Shown piece by piece: positions 6,654 through 33,085 of a stretch of DNA of 34,325 nucleotides; position 1 is the stretch's first letter; each line of letters starts with the position of its first letter. The position numbers and the translations under genes are program-made. Location of the stretch: NCBI GenBank assembly GCA_029936155.1, contig JAPYUK010000019.1, positions 1 to 34,325 of the forward strand, given 5' to 3'. Source of the stretch: Dehalococcoidia bacterium. GTDB lineage: Bacteria > Chloroflexota > Dehalococcoidia > Lucifugimonadales > Lucifugimonadaceae. Below the pieces are notes generated by a model. It had not been told where the DNA came from. It was given only the letters and a program-made list of their open reading frames with translations, and did not search any database.

Positions 6654-8129
6654 TCATCGTTGTTCAAGATCTAAATCCAACTCGTCACCCGTGCTTACCT
6701 GCCACTCCAGCACCCGCTCCGTCATGGCCCTCACCCGATCCGAATGATCCGGGTGATCGAACAGGTTCACAAGCTCAAGCGGGTCGCTGTTCAAGTCATA
6801 CAGTTCGCATGTATCGGCGGGGGAGAGGTTTAGTTTCCACCGATCGCCCGAAACCATGCACCGCCACGGAATCTCCGATAATCGTTCAACTTCGGCATTC
6901 CCAAGCGGCACCGTCGCCGCTCCACCATGCCACTGCATGAACACGTCATCGACCAACTCTGCATCACCCGTGAGAACTTCCTTACGGCTCGCCCCCTGAA
7001 GATGATCCGGCACATCCTGCCCCATCAAATCAAGCAATGTCGGAACCAGATCAGTATGCCCGATGCTGCCGCCAATCCGCTGTTCTCCGTCCGAAAGCCA
7101 TGGCACGTGAACGATTAACGGCACCCGTGCCACTTCGTCGTAAAACGCCCGCTTGTTGATCATGCCTCGATCACCCAGAGAGTCGCCGTGATCGCTCGTA
7201 AATACGACGATCGTGTCGTCGGCCTGCCCCGACTCCTCAAGAGCCGCCAATATCGATTCAATCCCGCGATCAAGCACAGTAACGTTCCCGAAGTACCGAG
7301 CGCGCAACTCACGCCAGTAACTCTCCGGATCTTCCGGGCGACGTTCCTCCGCCTCAGCTATGTGATGCTCGGCACGGACACGATTGAACGCCGGGGTGTT
7401 GTCAGCTGGTTTCTTCAAGAAAAGCGGACCCATCGGCAACTCTGCTGGGTCATACATTTCATTCAGTGGGCCGTTGTACGGCGGGTGCGGCTCGAACATG
7501 TTGACGTACATCAGCCACGGCTTCCCATCTTCACCGCGATCTTCGATGAAATCGACGGTATTCCGACTCAGGAACATCGCCATCGTATCGTCCATGGGAA
7601 AGTAGCCACGCTGAGCCTGTGTGTGCGACTTGTGCCCCTCGTGATCGCCCTCAGGCTCGTGCCCCTTGCCGACGAGATAGTCGAAGTAGTCTGACTTGCG
7701 ATCCCTGTCCTTCGGGTCGACCCAGTTCGGATAATTGTTATCGTGAGCGTCTTCTGTGCTCACCCATTCGGAAAACCCATGCTGAGGCGAAAGATCATCG
7801 CCCAGATGCCACTTGCCGTACTTACCGCAAACGTAATCGTCCGACACCATTTCTGCGATCGTTTTGACGTCCGGGAATAAGTTGCTGAACGGCCTACCCG
7901 GCTGGCTGTTTCGAACTACTCCCGCCGAGTGCGGATACAGACCAGTCATCATCGTCGAACGGGCTGGTGAGCAGACCGGCTGCGTTACATACGCGTTCTC
8001 GAACACAAAACTCCGACTCGCCAGTTCGTTCAGTGCTGGAGTCTCGATCCAGTCGTTCCCGTAGGCGCCAATTGTGTCGGTCCGTTGTTGATCAGAACAA
8101 ATGAAAAGAAGATTTGGCTTCGAATGCAT
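6654..8129 (-). CDS. Cys-type sulfatase (second copy)
   Basis: This 491-residue sulfatase is clearly paralogous to the one at 208-1695, sharing wording such as AYGNDWI, FVFE-YVTQPVC and GKWHLGD. The formylglycine motif is CSPAR with Cys at residue 53. The N-terminal metal motif is SDQQRTD (D13, D18). The C-terminal metal motif is TSDHGDSLGD, the canonical form, unlike SEHGD in the other copy. EPHPPYNGP is also typical of choline-sulfatase-like and N-sulfoglucosamine-sulfohydrolase-like subfamilies. No signal peptide is present. The ATG at 8129 opens MHSKPNLLFI, and only a weak GAGAAA lies upstream. It probably removes sulfate from an imported organosulfate; the exact ester is unknown. Confidence 0.94.
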   Translation of the reverse strand: MHSKPNLLFICSDQQRTDTIGAYGNDWIETPALNELASRSFVFENAYVTQPVCSPARSTMMTGLYPHSAGVVRNSQPGRPFSNLFPDVKTIAEMVSDDYVCGKYGKWHLGDDLSPQHGFSEWVSTEDAHDNNYPNWVDPKDRDRKSDYFDYLVGKGHEPEGDHEGHKSHTQAQRGYFPMDDTMAMFLSRNTVDFIEDRGEDGKPWLMYVNMFEPHPPYNGPLNEMYDPAELPMGPLFLKKPADNTPAFNRVRAEHHIAEAEERRPEDPESYWRELRARYFGNVTVLDRGIESILAALEESGQADDTIVVFTSDHGDSLGDRGMINKRAFYDEVARVPLIVHVPWLSDGEQRIGGSIGHTDLVPTLLDLMGQDVPDHLQGASRKEVLTGDAELVDDVFMQWHGGAATVPLGNAEVERLSEIPWRCMVSGDRWKLNLSPADTCELYDLNSDPLELVNLFDHPDHSDRVRAMTERVLEWQVSTGDELDLDLEQR

Positions 8130-9303: not shown

Positions 9304-10311
9304 ATGCAACGCGTATACATAACCCTCCAAGACGATCACAAAATCGCCATCTACAATCTGAATTCCGACATCGGCGCACTGACTCACCAGGAAGACATCG
9401 CAACTCCCGGCGGACCCGCCCCATTCGCCGTATCGCCCGACAAAACCCGCGCCTACACCGGGCTTCGTGACGCCAACAAAATGGCAAGCTTCGATATCGA
9501 TGCAACGACTGGGGCCCTTAAGCCGATAGGTACAGTCGATCTCGAATCCGACCCCTGCTACATCTCCGTCGACAACACCGGTCGACACCTGCTCTCCGCC
9601 TACTACGGAGCCGGTCACATCGCCGTTCATCCAATCGACGAACAAGGTGCTCTCGGCGGTGCGCCAACCGAATGGATCGCAACTCGACACCGTGCCCACT
9701 GCGCTCAAACCGATTCAACGAATTCGTACACGTTCCTGCCGCACGTCGACGATTCAAACGCCATCTACCAATACAAATTCGACGATCAAACCGGCAAACT
9801 CACCCCGAACACGCCTGCCGTAATCGAACCTCCAGCAGGGCACGGACCCCGTCACTACGCCTACCACCCAAACGGCAAATTCGTCTACTTCGACAACGAG
9901 CAAGCCTCCAGCGTTACTGCCTATAAATTAGACTCAGCAACCGGCACGTTGGAAGCATTTCAAACTCTTTCAACGCTCCCCGATGACTTCACAGGCGAAA
10001 ACTCAAACGCCCAAATTCACATGAGTCCCGACGGCAAATACCTCTACGCGGCAAACCGTGGACACAACTCGATCGCCATGTATTCAATCAACGATTCGAG
10101 TGGCGAACTAACATCCCTCGGCAACCAGCCATCACTCGGCACGCCGCGTGCGTTCGGAATCGACCCCACAGGAAAATTCATGCTCGTAGGCGGACTCGAC
10201 AGCGGCGATCTAGCCACCTACAAAATCAACCCCACAGGAACCCTCACCCACCTAAAAACCCAACCCATCGGCAACCTCCCAATGTGGATCCACATCACCG
10301 CTCCCGTCTAG
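9304..10311 (+). CDS. Lactonase family beta-propeller protein
   Basis: This 335-residue protein belongs to the 6-phosphogluconolactonase/YbhE (PF10282) beta-propeller family. Repeats are visible with the recurring pattern ISVD-TGRHLL, YHPNGKFVYF, MSPDGKYLYAANRG and IDPTGKFMLVGG, about 50 residues apart, fitting seven blades. Segments such as FAVSPDKTRAYTG and GHGPRHYAYHPNGK are family signatures. No signal peptide is seen. The proposed role is hydrolysis of a sugar lactone to its acid. Family members also include muconate-cycloisomerase-like scaffolds with no proven activity. No clear Shine-Dalgarno precedes ATG 9304. A hairpin follows the stop by 13 bases. Confidence 0.88.
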   Translation: MQRVYITLQDDHKIAIYNLNSDIGALTHQEDIATPGGPAPFAVSPDKTRAYTGLRDANKMASFDIDATTGALKPIGTVDLESDPCYISVDNTGRHLLSAYYGAGHIAVHPIDEQGALGGAPTEWIATRHRAHCAQTDSTNSYTFLPHVDDSNAIYQYKFDDQTGKLTPNTPAVIEPPAGHGPRHYAYHPNGKFVYFDNEQASSVTAYKLDSATGTLEAFQTLSTLPDDFTGENSNAQIHMSPDGKYLYAANRGHNSIAMYSINDSSGELTSLGNQPSLGTPRAFGIDPTGKFMLVGGLDSGDLATYKINPTGTLTHLKTQPIGNLPMWIHITAPV

Positions 10312-15046: not shown

Positions 15047-16774
15047 ATGACCACAACAAGCGGTTCACAAGAAAAACTCGACCAATCCCGCTCCGCCAAG
15101 CGTGCACCCGGCAAATGGCGTTCATGGGAGACCACCGAAGGCGCGATCCGAGCACCCCACCGCTCGATGATGAAGGCCATGGGACTCAATGACAAAGACA
15201 TCGCTGCACCGTTCGTCGGAATCGCCTCAACCCACAACGAAGTCACTCCCTGTAACTCAGGAATTGCACCCCTCGTTGAAGAGGTAAAACGCGGAGTTTT
15301 TGCCGCCGACGGCACCCCGTTTACTTTCGGAACAATAACGGTCTCCGACGCCATTTCAATGGGAACCGAAGGCATGAGAGGCTCCCTTGTTTCGAGAGAA
15401 GTCATCGCTGATTCGATCGAGACAGTTGTGTTTGCCGAACGCTACGACGGGCTGGTCGTCGTTGCTGGATGCGACAAGTCTCTCCCCGGCGGAATGATGT
15501 CGATGGCTCGCCTAAATGTCCCGTCCGTGTTCATCTACGGAGGTTCAATTCTTCCCGGGTCGCTGCACGGTGAAGATATCCAGATCCAGAACGTTTTCGA
15601 AGCTGTTGGACAGTTCCAAACCGGTGCTATCGACGCCGATGAGCTTTACGCAATCGAAAATCATGCCTGCCCCGGCTCCGGCTCTTGCGGTGGAATGTTC
15701 ACAGCCAACACGATGTCGTCGATCGGCGAAGCGCTCGGACTCTCGCTCCCCGGAGCCGCATCCGAACCCAACGTCGACCAGCGCAAAGCAGCTTCGTCCA
15801 GAGAAGCCGGGCATGCCGTCATGAACCTGTTGCGAAAGAACATTCGACCCTCCGACATCCTCACCCGAAAAGCGTTCGAGAACGCGGTGACGGTCGTCGT
15901 CGCCATGGGCGGATCAACCAACACCACGCTTCACCTCCCCGCTATCGCACACGAAATGGGCGTCGAGTTGACCCTCAAAGACATCCACGACATCTCGATG
16001 CGCACCCCGCTCATCGCAAACATGAAGCCGGGCGGCGATTACTTGATGCTCGATCTCGATCGACTCGGTGGAATCCCGGTTGTGATGAAGCGACTCCTCG
16101 ACGCTGGATTGCTCCACGGCGATTGCATGACTGTGACAGGCAAGACCATCGCCGAAAACCTTGCCGATGTTTTGGTTCCCGAGCCAACAAAGGTTCTCCA
16201 TTCGGTAGAAGACCCCATCTCAACAACCGGAGGACTCGTCACTCTCTTCGGAAATCTCGCTCCCGACGGCTGTGTGCTGAAGGTCGCTGGACACCAGTTC
16301 GGCCAGACATTCGGTGGGCCTGCCAAGGTGTTTGATGGCGAAGAGGGAGTGATGCAAGCTCTCCAGAAGCGCACGATCAATGAGGGCGACGCCATCGTCA
16401 TTCGCTACGAAGGACCCAGGGGCGGACCCGGAATGCGAGAAATGCTGTCAGTTACGGCCGCACTCGTTGGGCAGGGACTTGGTGAGAAGGTTCTATTGAT
16501 GACTGACGGTCGATTCTCGGGTGCCTCCCACGGCTCGATGATCGGCCACATCGGTCCCGAAGCCGCAGTCGGCGGTCCAATCGCAGCTGTGCGGGACGGC
16601 GATCTGATCGAGGTGAATCTCGACAAGTTCGAACTCAACCTCAAGATCAGCGACGATGAACTGGCAAGCCGGCTCGACGAGTGGCAGCCAAAGCCCCCGC
16701 CTTACACCAAGGGCGTCCTCAGCAAATACATCAAGCTGGTAAAACCCGCCTCAACCGGCGCCATAACTAGCTAA
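15047..16774 (+). CDS. ilvD: IlvD/EDD-family dihydroxy-acid dehydratase
   Basis: The protein has 575 residues, the usual length of dihydroxy-acid dehydratase. The iron-sulfur cysteines are C69 (EVTPCNSGI), C142 (GCDKSLPGG) and C214 ([15 protein letters not shown]), the three-Cys pattern of the [2Fe-2S] members. [21 protein letters not shown] and [10 protein letters not shown] are also conserved. The textbook reaction is dehydration of 2,3-dihydroxy-3-methylbutanoate in valine and isoleucine synthesis. Sugar-acid dehydratases for arabinonate, xylonate or gluconate share all these motifs, and the neighbouring lactonase makes that reading plausible. No other ilv gene is nearby. No Shine-Dalgarno is visible before ATG 15047. 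Confidence 0.92.
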
Positions 16775-21258: not shown

Positions 21259-22362
21259 TTGCAACTCGGAATCTTTGGAAAATATCTCACCCTTTGGGTG
21301 GCACTATGCATCGTCGCGGGCGTTGCTCTCGGTGAGTTTTGGCCCAGCTTTCCCGAAACGCTGAGTCGATTCACCGTCAGCCAGGTATCGATCCCCGTCG
21401 CCATACTCGTCTGGTTCATGATCTACCCGATGATGGCACGCATCGACTTTTCATCCGTAGCCAACGTCCGCAAGCGACCCCGCGGACTCGCCCTCACGCT
21501 CGTCATCAACTGGCTCGTCAAACCTTTCACCATGTTCGTGGTCGCATGGTTCTTCCTGAAAGTGCTCTTCTCACCATGGATCGACGGCGACCTCGGATCC
21601 GAATACCTCGCCGGAGCCATCCTGCTCGGAGCCGCTCCCTGCACAGCGATGGTGTTCGTCTGGAGCTACCTCACCAAGGGCAACGCCGCATACACACTCG
21701 TCCAAGTAACCGTGAACGATATCGTCCTACTCTTCGCGTACGCCCCGATAGTGATTTTCCTTCTGGGCATTGGCGACATCACCGTGCCTTACGATACCGT
21801 GATTCTCTCGGTCGTCCTTTTCGTCGTCATACCGCTCGCAGCCGGTTATGCCTCGCGGGTGTTTCTACTCCACAGCAAAGGTGCCGACTGGTTCGAAGAA
21901 ACCTTCTTGCAAAAACTCGGACCGGTCACCATCATCGGACTGCTGTTGACCCTCATCGTTCTCTTCTCGTTTCAGGGGAGCAAGATCCTCGACAATCCCG
22001 GGCACATCGGTCTCATCGCCATCCCGCTAATCACCCAGACATTCATCGTGTTCGGAATCGCGTACGGAGTGGCCAAGGTGTGGGGGCTCAGCCACGACAT
22101 CGCCGCCCCGGCGGCACTAATCGGAGTATCCAACTTCTTCGAACTCGCAGTGGCCGCGGCGGTATCGTTGTTCGGCCTCAACTCTGGAGCTGCACTGGCG
22201 ACCGTAGTAGGAGTGCTGGTTGAGGTGCCGATCATGCTCATCCTCGTACGATATGTAAACGCCACGGCTGCTTCCTTCTCGCACAACCACGATGGCACCT
22301 GCTGCCCTTCCGGAGCCGCGTTGGTTCATGAGTTGGATGCAGCCGAAGCTCCGAATCGGTAG
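21259..22362 (+). CDS. acr3: ACR3 family arsenite efflux permease
   Basis: This 367-residue membrane protein of the bile acid/arsenite/riboflavin transporter superfamily has about ten hydrophobic helices. The ACR3 signature APCTAMVFVWS carries the essential Cys at residue 128. The second conserved acidic residue is in SNFFELAVA, in the ninth or tenth helix. TVNDIVLL and the opening LTLWVALCIVAGV are typical. It extrudes arsenite from the cytoplasm using the proton gradient. The C-terminus carries about 25 extra residues with HNHDGTCC, a possible thiol or metal-binding tail that most relatives lack. No arsR or arsC lies beside it. The start is TTG 21259 (MQLGIFGKY). Confidence 0.93.
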   Translation: MQLGIFGKYLTLWVALCIVAGVALGEFWPSFPETLSRFTVSQVSIPVAILVWFMIYPMMARIDFSSVANVRKRPRGLALTLVINWLVKPFTMFVVAWFFLKVLFSPWIDGDLGSEYLAGAILLGAAPCTAMVFVWSYLTKGNAAYTLVQVTVNDIVLLFAYAPIVIFLLGIGDITVPYDTVILSVVLFVVIPLAAGYASRVFLLHSKGADWFEETFLQKLGPVTIIGLLLTLIVLFSFQGSKILDNPGHIGLIAIPLITQTFIVFGIAYGVAKVWGLSHDIAAPAALIGVSNFFELAVAAAVSLFGLNSGAALATVVGVLVEVPIMLILVRYVNATAASFSHNHDGTCCPSGAALVHELDAAEAPNR

Positions 22363-24135: not shown

Positions 24136-25110
24136 TTAAACCGATGCGAGTGCCGGTATCCGGCTGTAAATCTGGATACGGTGTCGACAGCTATCTGCGA
24201 TCAACACAAGCCCATCCTCACTCGTTTCAACTGCCGATGGGCGCCAGAAAAGCTTCTCCTGCTCCAACAATCCCGCACCATCACGCCAGCTTGCCTGCTC
24301 AGGATTCACATCAAGAAACTCCTGGCTCCACTTCGACAATGTAGCATCGCCTACCAGAGTCTCGGAGTGCGAGCCGTCCTGCCCGAACACTTGCACCCTA
24401 TCGTTACGCCAATCGACCACAAACACTGCACCGTCTGATGCCACGTGAACCCCGGACGGTCGATCAAATTCACCATCATTCTGGCCACTGGAACCAAGCA
24501 CACTCACGAATTCACCGTCCGGGGTAAATCGCTGCACACGATCGTTCCGCCAGTCGGCGATCCAGATGCCATCCTCGGCGTCTACCGAAATCCCCCAAGG
24601 AAAGTTGAACTGCCCAGCCTCGGTGCCGAACGTACCAAATGAAGAGATAAAGCTGCCGTCCGGTGCCAGTTTCTGAACACGAGCATTCAAGTGGTCAACG
24701 ATATGGACGTTGCCCTCAGAGTCGAACGCGATTCCAGACGGCCTGTTGAACTGACCATCGCCAGTGCCGAACTCACCCCACCGTTCGATGAACTTGCCAT
24801 CTCGATCAAAGATCGACACGTTGTGCATGAACTCGTCGGTAACAAAAACCCGATCATCGGCGTCTAAAGCAATCGCAGTTGGCTGCGTCGTCTGACCCGG
24901 ATCCGTACCCCAGCGTCCAAACTCATACATGTACTCGGAATCCAGCGTCTGCACGCTAACCCGGACGTCCTGGTTGGCTGCGTTCGAACGACTCAGCACA
25001 AACAGAATGCCCTTGCTATCCAGCCGCATATCGACCGGATTCATGAACCCTCGACCGAGAAATGACGCAATGCCAATCGTGTGACTGTACGCAAAGTTTT
25101 CGAGTGGCAT
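24136..25110 (-). CDS. NHL-repeat beta-propeller protein, cassette 1
   Basis: This 324-residue protein carries NHL repeats with recurring units of about 45 residues, such as FNRPSGIAFDSEGNVHIVD, FNFPWGISVDAEDGIWIAD and FDRPSGVHVASDGAVFVVD. A five- to six-bladed propeller is likely. Between the penultimate and last blade lies an insertion starting LSKWSQEFLDVNPEQ, also present in the paralogue at 32072. No signal peptide or membrane segment is seen. ATG 25110 is one base after the TGA of the DUF1501 gene, and AGGAGC overlaps that stop, so the two are translationally coupled. As the third gene of a DUF1800-DUF1501-NHL operon it may be a binding or sensing partner; its function is unknown. Confidence 0.9.
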   Translation of the reverse strand: MPLENFAYSHTIGIASFLGRGFMNPVDMRLDSKGILFVLSRSNAANQDVRVSVQTLDSEYMYEFGRWGTDPGQTTQPTAIALDADDRVFVTDEFMHNVSIFDRDGKFIERWGEFGTGDGQFNRPSGIAFDSEGNVHIVDHLNARVQKLAPDGSFISSFGTFGTEAGQFNFPWGISVDAEDGIWIADWRNDRVQRFTPDGEFVSVLGSSGQNDGEFDRPSGVHVASDGAVFVVDWRNDRVQVFGQDGSHSETLVGDATLSKWSQEFLDVNPEQASWRDGAGLLEQEKLFWRPSAVETSEDGLVLIADSCRHRIQIYSRIPALASV

Positions 25111-25111
25111 A

Positions 25112-26257
25112 TCAGCTCCTAACCAGATCGAGCTTGCTGAATTTCTGCTTCAATACCGGCTCCGACTCGACGCCAAGTACGTCCTCAAGCAGCGTTGCAT
25201 AAATCTGCCTAAAGTCCGTGTTGAACCTCACGTCGCCTTCCAACTGATCCGATAACCCAAGCTTCGGATAGTCGCCGTAAAGACCACCATTCACAGTGTC
25301 GCCAATCACAAACGCAACCCCACCCGAACCATGGTCTGTACCGGCGCCGTTGTCAGCAATACGCCGACCAAACTCCGAGAACATCCAGATAACCGTCTCG
25401 TCCTCTTTACCCTGCTGCTTCAGGTCATCCAAGAAGCACGAAACCGCCGCCGAAAGCTGATCCCACAGCAAAGCATGGTTAACCAGCTCGGCGGTGTGGG
25501 TGTCGAAGCTACCGTGAGCTGCGTAGTAGATACGAGTACCCAACTCCGCCGACATCACCTGTGAAATGCCCTTCAGGCTCTGGGCGATCGGGTTGTCTTC
25601 CGGGTACTCAACGTCCGACTTGTAAGTCACCGGTGCCTCACGAAGCAAGTCAGCACCATCCAGCGCTCCACGACCCGTCTCTAATATCCTACGAGACGGG
25701 AAGCCTCCGTCAGCCATCGGCTGGTAAATACGACTCACAGTGTCGAGCATGGCGTCTCGATTGGTAGCACCAGACAACCCGGTGTACAAGCCATAAGTTT
25801 CGAGTGCCCCTACCGAAGCGACCGAAACTCCCTGATAAGCCAGCGCCCTTGGAAGTCCACGGCCGAAGTTCACAGAAATGATCGGATTTTTACCTTCAGG
25901 ATCGATCAGCGAGTTAGCTTTGCCGAGCCAGCCTTCAGCCGAAGTCGTCGACGGCTCGGCTGTGTGCCAGATATCCATAGACCGGAAATGCGACCTGTTC
26001 GGCTCCGGGTATCCGATCCCCATCATCACGGCCATCTTGTCCTGATCAAAGAGACTCTTGAACGTACCCATGTGCGAATTGAACGCCAGTTTGTCATCGA
26101 CCGGGATAAGGTCCTCACCTTTGAGTCCCATGTTTGGTCGAAAATCGTAGTAGTGCCCGTCCTGGTAAGGAACAACGGTGTTCAGATAGTCATTACCGCC
26201 CGAAAGCTGAATCACTACCAGGTTTTTCTTCTTGTGTCCGTTTGTATTGTTTACCAT
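25112..26257 (-). CDS. DUF1501 domain protein, cassette 1
   Basis: This 381-residue protein is of the DUF1501 family, which shares the alkaline-phosphatase/sulfatase-type fold. Seen features are LVVIQLSGGNDYLNT at residues 14-27, SHFRSMDIWHT, GSFDTHTAELVNH and, near residue 300, MFSEFGRRIADNGAGTDHG, likely metal-site residues in part. Many family members start with a twin-arginine signal; this one starts MVNNTNGHKKKNLVV and has none. GAGGAGG lies 8 bases before ATG 26257. It starts 35 bases after the DUF1800 stop and is coupled to the NHL gene after it. The biochemical role of the family is not established. Confidence 0.92.
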   Translation of the reverse strand: MVNNTNGHKKKNLVVIQLSGGNDYLNTVVPYQDGHYYDFRPNMGLKGEDLIPVDDKLAFNSHMGTFKSLFDQDKMAVMMGIGYPEPNRSHFRSMDIWHTAEPSTTSAEGWLGKANSLIDPEGKNPIISVNFGRGLPRALAYQGVSVASVGALETYGLYTGLSGATNRDAMLDTVSRIYQPMADGGFPSRRILETGRGALDGADLLREAPVTYKSDVEYPEDNPIAQSLKGISQVMSAELGTRIYYAAHGSFDTHTAELVNHALLWDQLSAAVSCFLDDLKQQGKEDETVIWMFSEFGRRIADNGAGTDHGSGGVAFVIGDTVNGGLYGDYPKLGLSDQLEGDVRFNTDFRQIYATLLEDVLGVESEPVLKQKFSKLDLVRS

Positions 26258-26292
26258 ATCGACGCCTCCTCAGGTCGCCATAGCCTGCGCAA

Positions 26293-27684
26293 TTAGCAGT
26301 ACTGGTAATCGGGTGTGGAAACTATCAGTTGGAACATCTCGACGATGCGATCAGCACCGTCAGTCTCAGTGGAACTTCTCTTCGCTGCGTGATCGATCAG
26401 CACACTCTTCGAATCGGTATCAATATCGATCGAGCCCATCGCGTCGAGACACGCCTCAACAAACTCACTGGGATCTAGAGCTTCGCCTGCCTGCTCCACC
26501 AACTCGACCATCCGACTGACACCGGGTGATTCGACTCGAGCCAGCTCCGAGGCGGCAAAGTTGATTCGTTCGATAAGCGAACCCGAATCGACCCACTCCT
26601 CACCCTCGTGCCAACCTTCAACGCCAGGCGGATTTAGCAGAAATTGCCCCATATACATCGACTGGTTCGCCAGAGTCGAAGAATCCATGTCTGGAATATC
26701 AAAACGATCAGTAAGCCGCGCCGTGCCGAAAACTAGCTCAGCCGGACTTTTCACCTTGCGGAAACGCACGGCCTCAGACTTGAAATGATCCGAGTTGAAC
26801 AGTGATCGAAGGATCGCCCGGATGTCGCCATCCGTCTCCTGGAAAATATCGGTAAGCCGTTCGATTTCCTCGTTGTCGGGCTCATCCGAAACGAAGAACA
26901 GATACAACCGCATGGCGATAAATCGTGCAGTGGCGCGCTGCTTCACGACAATGTCGATTATCTCTTCGCCACCGAAGTTGCCAGTCTCACCGAGGAACAG
27001 CTTGTCGTTATTGTCGTGATCCGACTCGTCGAACCTGAACTCCATAGGGAACGGGCCTAACAAGAATGGAGGTGGTGTCGGCTTCGACGCCCACCCGGTA
27101 AACGCCCGAGCAGCAGTCTTCACGTCCTCTTCGGTGTATGCCCCTTCGCCCATATCGTCGATGCCCATCGAGAACAGTTCCAATAACTCCCGACCGTAAT
27201 TCTCGTTCGGAGCATCCTTGTGGCTGTTCTGATTGTCGAGCCAGTACATCATCCCTGGATTGCGTGAAATCTCAGAAAGAATCGTTTGAAACTTGCCAAG
27301 ACCAACCCGCCTGAAGAGTTCGATCTCGGTGAGCATCTCGAGACCGTGATCGAGCTTTATTCCGCCAACTGCCAGCAGACTGTGCCAGAAAAGAGCGATC
27401 TTTTCTTCAAGAGGTTTCTCCGAAGTCGCTAATCGCCACGACCACTGTGGGTCGGCGTGCGTAACTGAACGAGCCTCGACCGACGCAATGAAATATCGAT
27501 CCATCAGGTCCTCGTCTTCAGGCTTTCCAGCAACCGGGTTGAGCAGATACTCGACGGTCTCTTCGTATCCTCTGTCGAGATACTGATCGATCTGATCGCA
27601 AGTCGCACCGAAGCCCGCCCTTCGGAGTAAATGCGCCATAACGGCTACATCTTCGCGTTTGTGTTTTTTGGCAGTGGTCGTCAT
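26293..27684 (-). CDS. DUF1800 domain protein, cassette 1
   Basis: This 463-residue protein is of the DUF1800 family. Hallmarks are MAHLLRRAGFGAT at residues 15-27, EKIALFWHSLLA, NENYGRELLELFSMG, ARAFTGW, LGETGNFGGEEIID and LLNPPGVEGWHEG. The family is largely helical and almost always lies next to a DUF1501 gene. No signal peptide is seen; the start is MTTTAKKHKRED. It is the first gene of a three-gene minus-strand operon with DUF1501 and NHL. GGGGGTTGAG precedes ATG 27684. The family function is unknown, and a partner role for DUF1501 is inferred only from constant pairing. Confidence 0.92.
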   Translation of the reverse strand: MTTTAKKHKREDVAVMAHLLRRAGFGATCDQIDQYLDRGYEETVEYLLNPVAGKPEDEDLMDRYFIASVEARSVTHADPQWSWRLATSEKPLEEKIALFWHSLLAVGGIKLDHGLEMLTEIELFRRVGLGKFQTILSEISRNPGMMYWLDNQNSHKDAPNENYGRELLELFSMGIDDMGEGAYTEEDVKTAARAFTGWASKPTPPPFLLGPFPMEFRFDESDHDNNDKLFLGETGNFGGEEIIDIVVKQRATARFIAMRLYLFFVSDEPDNEEIERLTDIFQETDGDIRAILRSLFNSDHFKSEAVRFRKVKSPAELVFGTARLTDRFDIPDMDSSTLANQSMYMGQFLLNPPGVEGWHEGEEWVDSGSLIERINFAASELARVESPGVSRMVELVEQAGEALDPSEFVEACLDAMGSIDIDTDSKSVLIDHAAKRSSTETDGADRIVEMFQLIVSTPDYQYC

Positions 27685-27810
27685 ATTCTCAACCCCCGGT
27701 CACAAGTAGATCGGCCGACTCAATTTTCGGTTCAGACCGATCACCACCATCTTGTGCTAGATATTTGTGCGCGCAAGCCTATTAGCAAATTGAGTCGAAT
27801 GCAACAGATT

Positions 27811-28737
27811 TCATACGCTATCGTGCCTACTCGATATCTGGACTCCGGCACGCTCTTCCTGCAATGTCATCACAATCGACGCATCCCGATGACCAAGCCC
27901 CATCGAAACAGCAGTTTCCATCTCGGCCAGCACGGCACGGGAAAGCGCTACCGGCACATCAAGCTCATCTGCAAGTCCTACGGCCAATCCCAGATCTTTG
28001 TACGCCGTTGCCAGTGTGAAACGCGGCTCGAAGTCGCCTCTCATGAACGTTTCAGGCAGACGAACGTGCAGATTCCCGCCTTTTCCAATCGCAGCACGCT
28101 GCAACGCGTCGAGCAAGTCGTCTGGGGAAATCCCGGCTTTGACGCCGATCGAGAGGCACTCACCTATCACCTGATCCATCGAAAATGCAGCGAGATTATT
28201 CATCAACTTGGCGATTGTGCCGGTCCCTAACGGCCCAACATGAACGACGTCGCTCGAAAAAGCCTCTAACAAAGGACGAACTCGCTCTACATCCCCACGT
28301 TCGCCACCGATCAACGTCGTGAGCGTGCCCTCGGCTGCACCTTCCACCCCGCCGCTAATCGGAGCATCAACCAATGAAGCGCCACGCGCACGCAGCTTCT
28401 CGCCGATCTCGCGCGCGAGCGCGGGCGATCCAGTAGTGTGATCAACGATAAGTGTGCCAGATCGAATATCCGACTCAATTCCGCCCTCGCCAAGTACCAC
28501 TTCCTCAACCTCGGCTGGACCCGGCAGGCACAAGCAAACTATGTCGCATTTTTCAGTCACTTCACCGAGTGAAGTCGCAACCTCAGTGCCAGCCGCCTCA
28601 TCAAACACAGAACTCGCCGCCGCATCAGAGTCGAATACCATCAACGGATGACCAGCCCTCAGTAACTGCTCCACCATCGGGCGACCGATTTTGCCAACCC
28701 CAACGAAGCCCACTCGCGTCGACCTACTAGACATCAT
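27811..28737 (-). CDS. 3-hydroxyisobutyrate dehydrogenase-like NAD(P) oxidoreductase
   Basis: The protein has 308 residues from ATG 28737, 8 bases after GGGAG. The frame stays open for 140 more codons upstream, but these lack family residues. It is a beta-hydroxyacid dehydrogenase, oxidising or reducing 3-hydroxyacids such as 3-hydroxyisobutyrate or tartronate semialdehyde. The Rossmann motif is GVGKIG (13-18). The substrate loop is DAPISGGVEGA (125-135). The catalytic Lys is K177 in GTIAKLMNN. The length and two-domain layout are normal. It is divergent from the chemoreceptor fragment and has the same orientation as cassette 1, about 126 bases upstream of DUF1800. Confidence 0.92.
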   Translation of the reverse strand: MMSSRSTRVGFVGVGKIGRPMVEQLLRAGHPLMVFDSDAAASSVFDEAAGTEVATSLGEVTEKCDIVCLCLPGPAEVEEVVLGEGGIESDIRSGTLIVDHTTGSPALAREIGEKLRARGASLVDAPISGGVEGAAEGTLTTLIGGERGDVERVRPLLEAFSSDVVHVGPLGTGTIAKLMNNLAAFSMDQVIGECLSIGVKAGISPDDLLDALQRAAIGKGGNLHVRLPETFMRGDFEPRFTLATAYKDLGLAVGLADELDVPVALSRAVLAEMETAVSMGLGHRDASIVMTLQEERAGVQISSRHDSV

Positions 28738-28981
28738 CAAATCTTCTCCCACTGCCGAACGAAAATAACCGAGTGGCATGTAGACACAATACTCTGTCCA
28801 AGCCGAGCCGCCATGGTATCGGTCACCTACCCCGTGCCTGCAGTCACAAATTTGTAACACGGCGTCGAGAAAACCGTTAATGCCTTCGGCACTCGCTCGA
28901 CACCCAGCATTCCATTGAGTGACAGTTGCACACAGGTGGTTACACGCATTTTGTGCGAGTAATAACTTGCGCGCGTAAAGT

Positions 28982-29278
28982 CGACTTAAAGGATCGAAGC
29001 TCGCGGCTGAGGCCGGAGACTCGTTGAATAGGATTCGAGAGACAGTCCTTTCAGTAACAGAACAGGTCGAACGAATGTCCTCAGCTGCCGAAGAGGTCAC
29101 CGCATCCAGTGATGAAATGGTCAAATCAATCGAAAGCGTCAACGCTATTACTGAGGAAACCACAGCTTCGACTGAGCAGATGGCTGCCGGTAACTACGAG
29201 GTTCAGCAGTCAATGGATCAGATCAACGAGATCACTCAGGAATCTGGAGAAGCGATCGATGAAGAATTGGCCGCCTAG
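28982..29278 (+). pseudogene. C-terminal fragment of a methyl-accepting chemotaxis receptor
   Basis: The translation KLAAEAGDSLNRIRETV, then VERMSSAAEEVTASSDEMV, then ITEETTASTEQMAAGN is a heptad-rich coiled coil of the signalling/methylation type seen near the C-terminal end of chemoreceptors. There is no membrane segment, HAMP domain or complete hairpin tip. Similarity begins upstream of the first possible start (TTG 29024) and directly after a TAA, so the 5' part is missing. It ends EAIDEELAA and is followed by a strong terminator. It may be the tail of a lost receptor, or a small coiled-coil protein of 84 residues from TTG 29024. No other chemotaxis gene is in view. Confidence 0.5.
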
Positions 29279-29299
29279 GTACTAACGCTAGTATGCCGC

Positions 29300-29333
29300 A
29301 AAAAAGCCCTTGCATTTCTGCGAGGGTTTTTTT
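29300..29333 (+). terminator. Intrinsic terminator after the chemoreceptor fragment
   Basis: The stem is CCCTTGCA (29307-29314) with TGCGAGGG (29319-29326) and a TTTC loop. Six A precede it and seven T follow. It is the clearest factor-independent terminator in the window. Confidence 0.85.
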
Positions 29334-29462
29334 ATTCGACTTCTAAGTCAATGCGAAGCTCAAACTCACGCTCATCTCCATTATTTCAATCGCTGAGCTA
29401 AAGGGCAGTCTGGTAGGGTTTGGCGACTTGATCGCGGACACAGAAGCTAAAAAAAGCCATAA

Positions 29463-30875
29463 ATGTCAGAAAATAGTGGTACCAACCTGAGACTGATGAG
29501 CCATCTCATGCGCAGAGCTGGATTCGGTGCGGGTCGAGATGAACTCGAACAACGCGTTTCTACAGGCTACGAAGAAACCGTCGACGAGCTCCTGCATCCT
29601 GAAAATCAAGTCCCCGTCGACTACTACGAATTCCTACGCTACTACCCGCTGTGGTGGAAACCTGGAACCATGGGCGGGCTCGGGCATGCCGGATGGGTCT
29701 GGCGCATGATCAACACTCGGGCACCGCTTCAGGAAAAACTCTGCCTCTTCTATCACCAGCTTTTTGCGACAGGAGTCGCCAAGGTCGATCACTACGACGA
29801 GATCGAAGACATGATCGACATGTTCCGCGAAAAGGGGCTCGGTCACTACAAGACCATCCTCATGGAAGTCTCTCGTAGTCCAGCCATGATCTACTGGCTC
29901 GATAATCACGAAAACCATGCCACCTCGGTGAATGAAAACTGGGGCCGAGAGCTGCTAGAACTCTTCACTATGGGTGTCGGCAATTACACCGAAACCGACG
30001 TCCGAGAATGCTCACGCGCCTTCACCGGCTGGACTCTCGTTCACAAACTCCCTCGTTTCCACATGGGACGCTGGGACTGGGAGTTCTGGTACCGACCCGA
30101 GGATCACGACAACGATGAAAAAGTCTTTCTCGGGCACACTGGAAATTTCAACGGCGAGGAGATTGTCGACATCATCCTCGCTCAACCCGCCACAGCCACA
30201 TTCATCGCCCGCCATCTCTACAGCTTCTTTGTCGCCGACGAACCGCAGGTCCCCGCCTGGTCCGTCACCCCGCCGAACAACCCCAAAGCCGTCCAGGTGA
30301 TCGCCGATGTCCTCATCGAAAGCGACTACCACATCGGCACGGCACTGAAGTTCATCCTCACGTCCGACTTCTTCAAACAGGCAGTCTTCTCGAAGGTAAA
30401 AAATCCCACCGAAGTCGTTATCGGAACGCTCCGACTCGTAGGAAATACCGAGCGACCATCGCCAGAAACCATGGGCTGGGCAATGGATATCACCAACATG
30501 GGGCAAGACCTGCTCAACCCGCCGAGCGTCGAGGGCTGGCATTCGGGGATCGAATGGATCAACAGCGGCACGCTGATGAAACGTACCAACTTCACCGCCG
30601 AGTTGATCAGCGATCAGTCCAGACCCGGTGTGGCCGATCTCACAAACCGCGTGCTTTCGGCAGGCAATTCACCCGAGGCTCTCGTCGACGCCTGCCTTGA
30701 CGTGATGGGACCTCTCGAAATCGACTCAGACACCCGACTAGAGTTAATTGAGCACGCCAAATCACTCGAAGATTCAGGCCAGAGTAAAAACAGTGCACAG
30801 CGTGAAAACGGCGTATCGAATATTTCTGAAATTCTCCAGTTGATCGTATCGCTCAGAGAATTCCAGTTCGCCTAA
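29463..30875 (+). CDS. DUF1800 domain protein, cassette 2
   Basis: This 470-residue paralogue of the DUF1800 protein at 26293-27684 shares MSHLMRRAGFGAGRDEL near residue 12, QEKLCLFYHQLFATG, NENWGRELLELFTMG, CSRAFTGW, LGHTGNFNGEEIVDI and LLNPPSVEGWHSG. The protein opens MSENSGTNLRLM, with no signal peptide. It starts the plus-strand cassette DUF1800-DUF1501-NHL and lies 130 bases after the terminator at 29300-29333. The Shine-Dalgarno is weak, with only AAAAAAGCC upstream of ATG 29463. Divergence from the first copy is substantial, so the duplication is not recent. Confidence 0.92.
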   Translation: MSENSGTNLRLMSHLMRRAGFGAGRDELEQRVSTGYEETVDELLHPENQVPVDYYEFLRYYPLWWKPGTMGGLGHAGWVWRMINTRAPLQEKLCLFYHQLFATGVAKVDHYDEIEDMIDMFREKGLGHYKTILMEVSRSPAMIYWLDNHENHATSVNENWGRELLELFTMGVGNYTETDVRECSRAFTGWTLVHKLPRFHMGRWDWEFWYRPEDHDNDEKVFLGHTGNFNGEEIVDIILAQPATATFIARHLYSFFVADEPQVPAWSVTPPNNPKAVQVIADVLIESDYHIGTALKFILTSDFFKQAVFSKVKNPTEVVIGTLRLVGNTERPSPETMGWAMDITNMGQDLLNPPSVEGWHSGIEWINSGTLMKRTNFTAELISDQSRPGVADLTNRVLSAGNSPEALVDACLDVMGPLEIDSDTRLELIEHAKSLEDSGQSKNSAQRENGVSNISEILQLIVSLREFQFA

Positions 30876-30903
30876 CTTCCTTTCACGAATCCGCGGAAAA
30901 CAC

Positions 30904-30909
30904 GGAGGT
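30904..30909 (+). promoter_or_regulatory. Strong Shine-Dalgarno before an apparent ATC start
   Basis: GGAGGT is followed by 5 bases and then ATC at 30915, in frame with DUF1501. No ATG, GTG or TTG is in frame from the upstream DUF1800 stop to GTG 30990, which would remove the conserved GGND strand. Confidence 0.65.
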
Positions 30910-30914
30910 CAGAC

Positions 30915-32048
30915 ATCAGTAACGAAAAAAAAGACCCAGTAATCGTTGTTCTTCAGCTTTCAGGAGGTAACGACTATCTGAACACCGTCGTGCCTCACGC
31001 CGATCCTCTGTACAAGGACTACAGGCCGATAGTTAACGTCGCCGACGAAGATGTCCTGCACCTCGACGACCAGATCGGTTTCCACCCATCTATGGCTCCG
31101 ATTCAGAAGATGTATCAGAAAGGCAACGTTGCAATCCTTCATGGTGTGGGATACGAAAACTCCCCGCGATCGCACTTCCGCTCGATGGACATCTGGCATA
31201 CCTGCGAGCCGGAAATCCTCGGCACGGAAGGCTGGCTTGCGCGTGTAATTCGAGATATCGATCCCAATAAAGACAACGTCGTTACCGCTGTCAGCATGGG
31301 ACCATCTCTGTTCCGCGCCCTCGTTGGACCAGGCGTACCTGTAGCAACGGTCGAAAACATCGACAGCTACGGCATGCTCACCGGACTCACTCCGGAAGAA
31401 AAACTTTCACGAGTTCTCACTCGCTACCGCCGAATGTACTCGCCTGCAATCGGCTCAGGGCCAGTCATGGACTACCTCGGTCAGACCGGTCTCGATGCGC
31501 TCAAGGGCGCAGATATTCTCGCAGCCGCGCCTGCCAACTACTCTTCAAACATCGAATACGCCGATACGAGTGTCGGAAAGAAACTGAAAGGTATAGCCCA
31601 GATTCACCTAGCAGGTCTCGGATCAAGAATTTTCTATCTCGATCACTCCGGATTCGATACCCATGCCGACCAGATCGCAACACACGCACGACTTTGGAGT
31701 GAAGTTTCAACGGCGATCAACGATTTCTTCGAAGATCTTGAAGCCCGCAACGCTGCCGACAACGTGGTGATGTTTTTGTTCTCGGAATTCGGACGTCGAG
31801 TCTACGACAATGGAGCAGGCACCGATCACGGCGCAGGCGGCGTGTGCCTCGCCATAGGAAAGGGCGTCAAGGGCGGCCAGTACGGTGAGTACCCCTCAAC
31901 CCGCCCAACCGATCTCGATCAGGGTGATCTGGTCCCCGGCACCGACTTCAGAAGCGTCTACACCACACTTGTTGAAGATTGGATGGAACTCGATCCAGTA
32001 TCGGTCGTCGGTGGCAACTTTGAAAAGCCTGAGTTCATCGCCAAATAG
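30915..32048 (+). CDS. DUF1501 domain protein, cassette 2
   Basis: The protein has 377 residues from ATC 30915, against 381 in the paralogue at 25112-26257. The N-terminus ISNEKKDPVIVVLQLSGGND aligns with that of cassette 1. The first ordinary start, GTG 30990, would delete that conserved strand. Other shared features are SHFRSMDIWHT, SGFDTHADQIATH and FSEFGRRVYDNGAGTDHG, likely parts of a metal site of the alkaline-phosphatase-like fold. No twin-arginine or Sec signal is seen. It follows DUF1800 by 39 bases and precedes the NHL gene by 23. The role of the family is unknown. Confidence 0.9.
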   Translation: MSNEKKDPVIVVLQLSGGNDYLNTVVPHADPLYKDYRPIVNVADEDVLHLDDQIGFHPSMAPIQKMYQKGNVAILHGVGYENSPRSHFRSMDIWHTCEPEILGTEGWLARVIRDIDPNKDNVVTAVSMGPSLFRALVGPGVPVATVENIDSYGMLTGLTPEEKLSRVLTRYRRMYSPAIGSGPVMDYLGQTGLDALKGADILAAAPANYSSNIEYADTSVGKKLKGIAQIHLAGLGSRIFYLDHSGFDTHADQIATHARLWSEVSTAINDFFEDLEARNAADNVVMFLFSEFGRRVYDNGAGTDHGAGGVCLAIGKGVKGGQYGEYPSTRPTDLDQGDLVPGTDFRSVYTTLVEDWMELDPVSVVGGNFEKPEFIAK

Positions 32049-32071
32049 CACACCCCCTAGCGGAATTATCA

Positions 32072-33085
32072 ATGTCACCCTCACTAACCACATCAGCCGC
32101 CGGGCGGGCCTACGACTTCAGCCACGTCGTCGGAGGTCGCCAGATTACGGGCGTCGTGAACATGGCGTTCGGTGAGAACGACGATGTATATGTGACGAAA
32201 AAAGCACTGGCCTTCTTCGACGTTGAGCTGCTCAAGATCGGAACCGAGCCGGGCGATGAGGAGGTCGTTACCTCGTTCAAAGAAGTGAACCCCGGATTTT
32301 TCGATGAGAGCTGGCCGTCATGCGTGGCCGTAGCGCCGAACAAAGACGTGTACGTTACCGATGAGCTTCGCCACTTCATCTCAGTCTTCGATCGTGATGG
32401 CAAGTTCATTCGGAACATAGGTGAACACGGCAATCAGCCCGGCAATTTCGACCGACCGTCAGGCATCGTTTTCGCAGACGACGGGTCTCTCTACGTTTCC
32501 GACACCAAGAACCACCGAATTCAGCATCTCACCGCAACAGGTGAACATCTGAACAGCTTCGGAACACAAGGTTCTATTGAAGGAGAATTCCAGTCACCAT
32601 GGGGCATCAGCCTCGATGCAAGAGGTAACGTGTTCGTCGCCGACCACGCCAACAACCGGATTCAAAAGTTCGACAGCAAGGGCACATTTATCTCAACGCT
32701 AGGCAGCCTTGAATCAGGTTCTGGCGCGGGGAAGTTTGATCATCCCTCCGACGTCGCAGTCGACCCCGATGGCGACATCTACGTGTGCGACTGGGCAAAC
32801 AACCGTGTTCAGATGTTTGATGAGTCGGAAGAATATGTCCTTCAAATGGGCGGATCTGCGGTCGAGCTTTCAAAGTGGCAGAAACGCTACATCCAAGGAA
32901 ACCCCGACGTATACAAGGCTCGCCGACGCGTCGATACTCTTGATCCCGAGACCGGTTTCGCACTCCCAACCGGTGTCGAGTTCGACAGCCGTACAAAGCG
33001 ACTCTTCGTGGTCGACTCCCAGCGCTGGCGAATACAGATATTCAACAAGCTAGAAGACTACGCCGAACCGCAGTTCAACATATAA
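32072..33085 (+). CDS. NHL-repeat beta-propeller protein, cassette 2
   Basis: This 337-residue NHL-repeat protein is paralogous to that at 24136-25110. Repeats read FDRPSGIVFADDGSLYVSD, FQSPWGISLDARGNVFVAD and FDHPSDVAVDPDGDIYVCD. The stretch FISVFDRDGKFI matches VSIFDRDGKFI in the other copy. The same insertion follows the penultimate repeat, here LSKWQKRYIQGNPDV. No signal peptide or membrane helix is seen. It starts 23 bases after the DUF1501 stop with a modest GGA-type Shine-Dalgarno, closing the plus-strand operon. A scaffold, ligand-sensing or lactonase-like role is possible; none is shown. Confidence 0.9.
   Translation: MSPSLTTSAAGRAYDFSHVVGGRQITGVVNMAFGENDDVYVTKKALAFFDVELLKIGTEPGDEEVVTSFKEVNPGFFDESWPSCVAVAPNKDVYVTDELRHFISVFDRDGKFIRNIGEHGNQPGNFDRPSGIVFADDGSLYVSDTKNHRIQHLTATGEHLNSFGTQGSIEGEFQSPWGISLDARGNVFVADHANNRIQKFDSKGTFISTLGSLESGSGAGKFDHPSDVAVDPDGDIYVCDWANNRVQMFDESEEYVLQMGGSAVELSKWQKRYIQGNPDVYKARRRVDTLDPETGFALPTGVEFDSRTKRLFVVDSQRWRIQIFNKLEDYAEPQFNI

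Follow-up and report, generated by a model that had tools for sequence, protein, structure and literature searches.

The locus examined here raises the question of whether an NHL-repeat beta-propeller gene can be a regular third member of the known gene pair DUF1800-DUF1501, and what three such proteins might do together. In a 34,325-nt stretch of a Dehalococcoidia bacterium genome (assembly GCA_029936155.1, contig JAPYUK010000019.1; hereafter the window, which is contig C14 of a 2.07-Mb, 89% complete genome), the three families occur twice, as cassette A on the minus strand (27684-24136) and cassette B on the plus strand (29463-33085). A Pfam scan and a reading of the open reading frames (ORFs) bore out the families, coordinates and gaps that the original prediction, made from the letters alone, had given for the two cassettes. 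DUF1800 scored 330.8 and 323.1 bits in A and B (cut-off 26.1; PF08811 profile positions 1-419 and 1-418), DUF1501 94 and 100.8 bits (PF07394 cut-off 27) and the NHL repeats 107.2 and 124.5 bits (cut-off 20), with gaps of 35 and 39 bases between DUF1800 and DUF1501 and of 1 and 23 bases between DUF1501 and NHL; for the DUF1800 and DUF1501 proteins of the window there was no NCBIfam match at E 0.01. This three-gene variant of a known gene pair is real and, as far as our literature search shows, new: no description of a physical DUF1800-DUF1501-NHL trio was found in the literature searched, mostly open-access texts.

Linkage and co-divergence of the three families

Profile searches of the genome containing the window located seven DUF1800 genes, seven DUF1501 loci (an eighth row belonged, as a second piece, to a gene already counted) and numerous genes with NHL repeats, and all seven DUF1800 genes stood in trios with DUF1501 and NHL. 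Five trios had the order DUF1800-DUF1501-NHL, one (C34) was DUF1800-NHL-DUF1501 and one (C79) DUF1501-DUF1800-NHL-NHL. The tandem NHL genes of C79 (L011 5070-7550) are near-identical over most of their length, through either a recent duplication or an assembly artefact.

A reciprocal test used seven near-complete relatives holding 53 DUF1800, 37 DUF1501 and 52 cassette-type NHL genes, the last defined by at least 308 bits against the cassette NHL hidden Markov model (HMM), with the next NHL score at 141. Within 1.5 kb of a same-strand DUF1800 gene lay 42 of the 52 cassette-type NHL genes, and within 5 kb 48 of them, while for 51 genes placed at random (one on a very short contig was left out) the number within 1.5 kb averaged 0.43 and never exceeded 4. 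Chance adjacency is rejected by this comparison, and the survey for triplets proposed with the original prediction thus found NHL commoner than chance. Other NHL genes of these genomes (32 places, after removal of three overlapping second pieces from 35 rows) were never found within 5 kb of a same-strand DUF1800. Counted per DUF1800 gene, the orders were DUF1800-DUF1501-NHL (22), DUF1800-NHL (14), DUF1501-DUF1800-NHL (5), DUF1800-DUF1800-DUF1501-NHL (4), DUF1800-NHL-DUF1501 (3), other (3) and alone (2); gene order can change while the company of the three genes persists. DUF1501 was absent within 5 kb for 18 of the 53 DUF1800 genes and NHL for only 3, so DUF1800 and NHL look like the core of the module. 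The NHL gene had been cast as an addition to the pair, and it is instead DUF1501 that is most often missing. Each of the seven genomes holds at least two DUF1501 genes, and action in trans is therefore possible.

HMMs built from the cassettes of the window's own genome were also scanned against the ORFs of three locus samples, namely 60 regions from 14 relatives, 40 phylum-wide regions and 80 loci in named genomes, the first two samples being hand-picked among the matches listed in favour of near-complete genomes and mid-contig positions. DUF1800 was present in 41 of 60 relatives, with up to 13 copies per genome. Its scores split into a cassette group above 500 bits and a classical group below 400 bits, with a single gene between them (L190, 490 bits, cut by the locus end). 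Taking DUF1800 genes with at least 4.5 kb downstream, and counting as partner any NHL gene of at least 200 bits on the same strand within 5 kb, we found a partner for 58 of 61 cassette-clade genes in the relatives, 60 of 61 in the named genomes and 2 of 2 in the phylum sample. The relatives and named samples share at least three loci (L125=L034, L150=L057, L166=L042), without which the named sample gives 58 of 58. Fourteen cassette DUF1800 genes without NHL were found, 10 of them with short flanks. By the same criteria, 37 of 39 classical DUF1800 genes had DUF1501 and none had NHL, which rejects a general association of NHL with DUF1800-DUF1501. The NHL gene is therefore a near-fixed partner within the cassette clade, as had been proposed, but neither is the order fixed nor does the rule extend to the pair as a whole.

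The classical pair (PF08811-PF07394), of which one described example lies beside bacterial chitin synthases (PMC5122149), thus has the same two families, the same adjacency and the same presumed active-site residues as the cassettes, but differs from them in having no NHL partner. It also differs in copy number: outside the window's own family, 56 of the 65 phylum-sample genomes having DUF1800 carried a single copy, whereas the cassette clade is multi-copy. On a quick tree of 92 DUF1800 sequences, the 20 classical rows formed one side of a branch with full support (SH-aLRT 100). The seven paralogues of the window's genome needed seven separate places on the same tree, so that recent local duplication of A and B is rejected; DUF1800-B was nearest a same-genus gene (85% identity) and DUF1800-A a same-family gene (73%). 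The DUF1800 proteins of A and B are 45% identical and belong to separate lineages, which agrees with the divergent paralogues originally described, and on this tree the two cassettes are old paralogues with orthologues elsewhere. One locus around an orthologue of B (L071, in G004) holds one cassette alone in 13 kb, and the side-by-side arrangement of the window is therefore not general.

The three families also diverge together. Distances between paralogues within genomes were correlated for DUF1800 and NHL (rho 0.69; 7 genomes, 194 pairs), DUF1800 and DUF1501 (rho 0.85; 6 genomes, 99 pairs) and DUF1501 and NHL (rho 0.69; 6 genomes, 94 pairs). In 2000 within-genome shuffles none reached the observed values (highest 0.49, 0.68 and 0.56, respectively), with the limit that the shuffles count related genomes as separate, although these have orthologous cassettes in common and are not fully independent. 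These distances provide good evidence for joint evolution of the three families.

The propeller of the cassettes is a type of its own. The cassette NHL HMM, built with both among its members, gave cassette NHL proteins A and B 507 and 461 bits, as compared with 54-164 bits for the other NHL proteins in the fetched loci of the same genome; cassette-type proteins matched the model near end to end, and other NHL proteins only over about positions 60-261 of 336. A regular expression for the C-terminal insert of the cassette type picked out 67 of 135 cassette proteins and none of 14 other NHL proteins, and was dropped.

Named genomes matched by the DUF1800 alignment of the window's genome were mostly SAR202/Dehalococcoidia or Chloroflexota metagenome-assembled genomes. 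Full trios were found as well in Caldilineaceae, Poribacteria, Entotheonella, Acetobacteraceae and one Rhizobium metagenome-assembled genome, which suggests transfer if the binning is right. Close cassette-type DUF1800 genes occur in Rokubacteria, Entotheonella, Proteobacteria, Caldilineaceae and Poribacteria metagenome-assembled genomes (Table 1), by transfer or misbinning.

We take COG5267 to be DUF1800 and COG3391 to be a beta-propeller. COG4102, which is DUF1501 (PMC6329079), was named together with these two as uncharacterised in a paragraph on the correlation matrix of abundant COGs in SAR202 (Saw 2020, PMC6946804); the passages on these COGs report no physical linkage of the three, and the paper's main text contains neither "NHL" nor "propeller". 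SAR202 bacteria are widespread in the ocean, and their large paralogue expansions are thought to aid oxidation of recalcitrant organic carbon (PMC6946804, PMC10444878, PMC5395668). With the linkage described here, three expanded and formerly uncharacterised SAR202 families become one co-diverging, testable module. Members of the group are cultivable, with growth enhanced by fucose and rhamnose (PMC10444878), and direct tests are therefore possible.

Candidate function of the module

An AlphaFold2 model of DUF1501-A (predicted local distance difference test, pLDDT, 85.1; predicted template-modelling score, pTM, 0.88) was compared with the PDB by Foldseek. The best match was lipoteichoic acid synthase LtaS (4uor, E 3.1e-7), followed by sulfatases, with 156 matches at E<=0.001, in line with the alkaline-phosphatase-superfamily (AlkP) fold named in the original prediction, at a template-modelling score (TM-score) of about 0.44 and 14% identity; a DUF1501 profile run against the sequences of solved structures found nothing at E 1. 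Among DUF1501 frames longer than 330 aa, a cleaner set than that of the export test below, residues D23, S89, H90, D252, H254, E295, R298, D308 and H309 (cassette A numbering) were shared by all 120 cassette proteins and by 37-38 of the 38 classical ones, while R88, R92 and H98 never varied among the cassette proteins but did so among the classical ones. The nucleophile of AlkP-superfamily enzymes usually sits where a strand gives way to a helix, and in the model S89 lies directly before helix 90-99, which comes after a core strand. The type I sulfatase signature at the nucleophile is Cys/Ser-X-Pro-X-Arg. Around the invariant Ser89 the residues are R-S-H-F-R, which is not that signature, and a formylglycine-type sulfatase is unlikely on this count; from the earlier idea of a phosphatase- or sulfatase-type hydrolase, the fold survives in the model and this type of sulfatase does not. 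We regard the model and the conserved residues as moderate evidence that DUF1501 is an AlkP-superfamily enzyme with a presumed Ser/Asp/His active site.

The DUF1800-B model is helical (pLDDT 89.0, pTM 0.90), and its fold search of the PDB returned no match at E<=0.001 (best 0.52), while a DUF1800 profile search of solved-structure sequences gave weak matches only, the best being Glr1262 (E 0.0071). The two protein models, DUF1501-A and DUF1800-B, can serve as starting points for further work. In profile-profile comparison by hhalign, DUF1800 matched PSD1 (PF07587) with probabilities of 89.6% and 85.0%, as against 0.2% and 0.1% for the DUF1501 and NHL controls, the PSD1 alignment consisting of seven sequences from two related genomes. 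DUF1800 proteins filled the 15 best places when the PSD1 HMM was run on the sampled ORFs (E 6e-7 to 4e-4), and conversely the DUF1800 HMM found 4 of 11 PSD1 loci (E 2e-6 to 6.5e-4, a small set); a Pfam scan of the DUF1800 proteins of A and B at E 0.001 gave DUF1800 alone and no PSD1. By these profile matches DUF1800 is distantly related to PSD1.

Planctomycetes-Verrucomicrobia-Chlamydiae (PVC) bacteria have gene clusters that pair PSD1 with DUF1501, and among our loci DUF1501 came directly after PSD1 in 5 of 11 cases (two Poribacteria genomes, with short flanks). Genomic clusters containing DUF1501 have been noted in PVC bacteria (PMC4452313, citing Kamneva 2012), and DUF1501 is often annotated beside WD40 propeller genes in Planctomycetes (PMC5587647). 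The module suggests a common logic with these clusters, although the partner in the cassettes is DUF1800 and not PSD1, to which its hhalign relation is remote, PSD1 frames are mostly longer (557-1292 aa) than cassette DUF1800, and WD40 is a different propeller family from the cassette NHL.

Our best explanation, which we consider narrowly probable as a whole, is that the three proteins of each cassette act together in the cytoplasm as one functional unit, with AlkP-type catalysis and, in cassette B, a DUF1501 limited by an AUC start codon. We infer that the helical, PSD1-related DUF1800 and the cassette-type propeller would form the core of a physical complex, the propeller being an adaptor that holds a partner or substrate. 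DUF1501 would be the catalytic subunit, with Ser89 as nucleophile and Asp/His metal ligands, and would cleave or transfer a phosphate ester (a sulfate ester less likely), probably on sugar or sugar-acid substrates in SAR202, with substrates that differ between the old paralogous cassettes. A conserved AUC start, of the class repressed by initiation factor 3 (IF3), may limit the output of this subunit in cassette B and possibly adjust it. The more ambitious version, in which the module is an unrecognised cytosolic machine whose paralogues are substrate-specific in SAR202 and whose catalytic subunit is dosed by IF3 through AUC in one lineage, seems to us possible but on the whole doubtful.

Several observations weigh against a three-protein unit of this kind. 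The trio is not obligate in cis, given the DUF1800 genes that lack DUF1501 or NHL nearby and, conversely, 4 of 37 DUF1501 and 4 of 52 cassette-type NHL genes without DUF1800 within 5 kb in the seven genomes. Gene order varies among cassettes. Mapping the presence of the partners onto the DUF1800 tree takes 6 changes for NHL and 10 for DUF1501, for which short flanks are partly responsible. The fold match of DUF1501 is remote. Two-metal alkaline phosphatases have a third histidine among their metal ligands, and this was not identified in DUF1501. The neighbours of the cassettes are varied, with no fourth gene fixed, so the substrate is a guess.

The three proteins might instead be successive enzymes, or enzymes and a binding protein, of one pathway, such as a hydrolase followed by an SMP-30-like lactonase propeller, co-inherited without forming a complex. 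This is unlikely in our judgement, though it would account for the additional matches of the NHL proteins to SGL/gluconolactonase and Vgb-lyase propeller models, for the sugar-acid genes found in the window and around other cassettes, and for cassettes that do without DUF1501. The cassette NHL family with its own N- and C-terminal regions, and the strong co-divergence of DUF1800 with NHL, fit contact between the proteins better than a shared pathway, without being proof of it.

The start codon of DUF1501-B

The DUF1501 gene of cassette B had been placed at 30915, a position that held, but it reads ATC, which is not one of the canonical start codons and which the original prediction had passed over. 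No ATG, GTG or TTG occurs from the preceding in-frame stop as far as a GTG at 30990, itself past the GGND motif; the ATC stands 16 codons before GGND with GGAGGT upstream, and it aligns with the ATG of other cassettes. Of 121 cassette DUF1501 genes, 115 had a canonical start codon 10-40 codons ahead of the motif, and the six without one were five cassette-B orthologues and L165, whose anchor was misplaced.

A search of 100 relatives gave ten genomes for comparison, the window's own included, whose DUF1501-B copies are at least 83% identical. The codon at the start was ATC in nine and ATA in one, preceded in each by a purine-rich run (by eye), and such agreement rejects sequencing error as its source. 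In none of the ten does a canonical codon occur 10 or more codons ahead of GGND, or anywhere before the first core strand. Mean pairwise identity was 34% over the 45 nt upstream, 100% at bases 1 and 2 of the start codon and 80% at base 3; in the 39 codons that follow, it averaged 88 and 90% at positions 1 and 2 and 45% at the third. The neighbouring genes start conventionally, with ATG for NHL in 9 of 9 loci reaching it and for DUF1800 in 9 of 9 holding its start. Starts were read for 30 orthologue loci and L121 (the same genome as G001 by sequence): the next five orthologues (77-79%) have TTG or GTG further upstream, G251 (71%) has TTG at -16, and all 14 more distant ones read have ATG. Codon 9 (Val) is GTA in all ten genomes, where GTG would compete as a start; this may be avoidance or chance.

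From this pattern we infer that DUF1501-B is translated from the AUC. The ATC might otherwise not be a start at all, with DUF1501-B reached from DUF1800 by readthrough or frameshifting, or begun at an internal codon. The DUF1800-B stop of the window is indeed in frame with DUF1501-B, while GGND is preceded by a GTG in G021 (5 codons away) and by a TTG in G016 (2 codons away), both inside the first strand. We hold this to be improbable, as the other eight genomes have no ATG, GTG or TTG before GGND, fusion to DUF1800 is excluded in G021 because four codons are all that stand between an in-frame stop and its ATC, and the alignment with ATG, the purine run and the switch in conservation at the ATC all speak for initiation there.

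IF3 represses non-canonical starts in other bacteria, where the known related cases are infC, with ATT in E. coli and ATC in Streptomyces, and sigR, with GTC (PMC5472188). In the lineage of the window, 17 of 23 infC loci (L240-L262; own genome L255) were readable, the six not matching the pattern being left uncounted, and all 17 lacked an ATG and had ATA (15) or ATT (2) ahead of the conserved core; four had no near canonical codon, and in four others the sole one was a GTG past the beginning of the core. Nine of the 17 also have GTG or TTG further upstream, which counts against such a reading. Because of the conservation and the known precedent, infC of this lineage appears to start with ATA or ATT, and this in turn suggests IF3-gated translation of DUF1501-B. 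So rare a start codon would keep DUF1501-B output low. The non-canonical start is common to DUF1501-B and the IF3-controlled genes infC and sigR, but that of DUF1501-B sits in the middle gene of an operon-like cassette, and IF3 control is here a candidate. The conserved AUC would be a rare natural case for translation control by choice of start codon beyond infC and sigR; if this is true, DUF1501-B is a third natural kind of IF3-gated gene beside those two.

Location, neighbours and features of the window

By a crude test of N-terminal hydrophobicity and motif, a twin-arginine translocation (Tat)-like N-terminus was found in 0 of 121 cassette DUF1501, 0 of 135 cassette NHL and about 1% of 152 DUF1800 proteins, as compared with 51% of 41 low-scoring DUF1501, a fraction that is probably an underestimate since this group includes truncated cassette genes. 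No Tat leader was seen when the N-termini of DUF1501 in cassettes A and B were read. The module appears to work inside the cell, in the cytoplasm, unlike the classical pair, about half of whose DUF1501 proteins are Tat-like by the same test. There is a slim prospect that the cassette proteins act outside the cytoplasm like that exported pair, by an unrecognised route: presumed catalytic residues are the same in both clades, and the DUF1501 beside bacterial chitin synthases carries a twin-arginine motif (PMC5122149), but no sampled cassette DUF1501 or NHL had a strongly hydrophobic or Tat-like N-terminus. A linkage without joint function, produced in an old multi-copy family by neutral clustering or a recombination hotspot, is highly improbable, for although unrelated genes lie inside some cassettes and C79 carries a near-identical NHL copy, other NHL genes keep no such company and the trio persists through order changes in metagenome-assembled genomes of several phyla.

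The commonest family in the flanks, short-chain dehydrogenases, occurred at 22 of 144 loci, which rejects a fixed fourth gene; other frequent neighbours were luciferase-like monooxygenases, GMC oxidoreductases and enolase-superfamily enzymes, and flavin monooxygenases, enolases and dehydrogenases are common in SAR202 anyway (PMC6946804, PMC10444878). In the window the sulfatases, lactonase, dehydratase and transporter (Table 1) look like a sugar-acid catabolism neighbourhood. Of the two genes originally described between the cassettes, the dehydrogenase stood in shortened form: its best-matching model is 2-hydroxy-3-oxopropionate reductase, with a score under the model cut-off, and the gene most likely runs from an ATG at 28734 to 27811, the 450-aa ORF being too long. 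The supposed chemoreceptor fragment found no Pfam family at E 1e-5 and is probably a decayed fragment. Promoter and terminator scans gave no signal above shuffled sequence.

Table 1. Positions of the cassette genes, their neighbours in the window and cassette-type loci in other taxa
Feature	Position	Strand	Remarks
Cassette A DUF1800	26293..27684	-	463 aa, helical family; PF08811 E 1.9e-98; no visible export signal (N-terminus read)
Cassette A DUF1501	25112..26257	-	381 aa, ATG start; PF07394 E 1.4e-26; AlkP-superfamily fold by model
Cassette A NHL beta-propeller, cassette-specific type	24136..25110	-	324 aa; PF01436 E 1.6e-31
Cassette B DUF1800	29463..30875	+	470 aa; PF08811 E 4.1e-96
Cassette B DUF1501	30915..32048	+	377 aa, non-canonical ATC start; PF07394 E 1.2e-28 (frame from 30882)
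Shine-Dalgarno-like GGAGGT before the ATC start of DUF1501-B	30904..30909	+	sequence
Cassette B NHL beta-propeller	32072..33085	+	337 aa, ATG start; PF01436 E 5.1e-37
2-hydroxy-3-oxopropionate-reductase-like dehydrogenase between the cassettes, outside the module	27811..28734	-	PF03446 from residue 150 of over-long ORF
Short chemoreceptor-like ORF (by eye) between the cassettes	28979-29278	+	no Pfam match at E 1e-5
Two sulfatase genes	208-1695 and 6654-8129	-	
Lactonase	9304-10311		
Dihydroxy-acid dehydratase	15047-16774		
Bile-acid-symporter-type transporter	21259-22362		
Close cassette-type DUF1800 in other taxa	L140, L144-L147, L149, L151, L184, L191, L193, L196-L198		

An anti-phage defence system was rejected, since the PADLOC matches were weak and confined to NHL (partial, to PD-T4-6, E 0.0066 and 1.4e-4), with none at E 0.01 for DUF1800 or DUF1501 (DUF1501-B scanned from 30990 on), notwithstanding restriction-type genes in or near a few cassettes. 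Genes for GmrSD-like, DUF4268 and ankyrin-repeat proteins lie inside some cassettes (L049 7343-9163, L035 3527-5497, L061 2705-4699), and an HSDR_N gene and a DNA methylase gene adjoin others (L040, L063). Sugar-acid genes, too, recur near cassettes other than those of the window.

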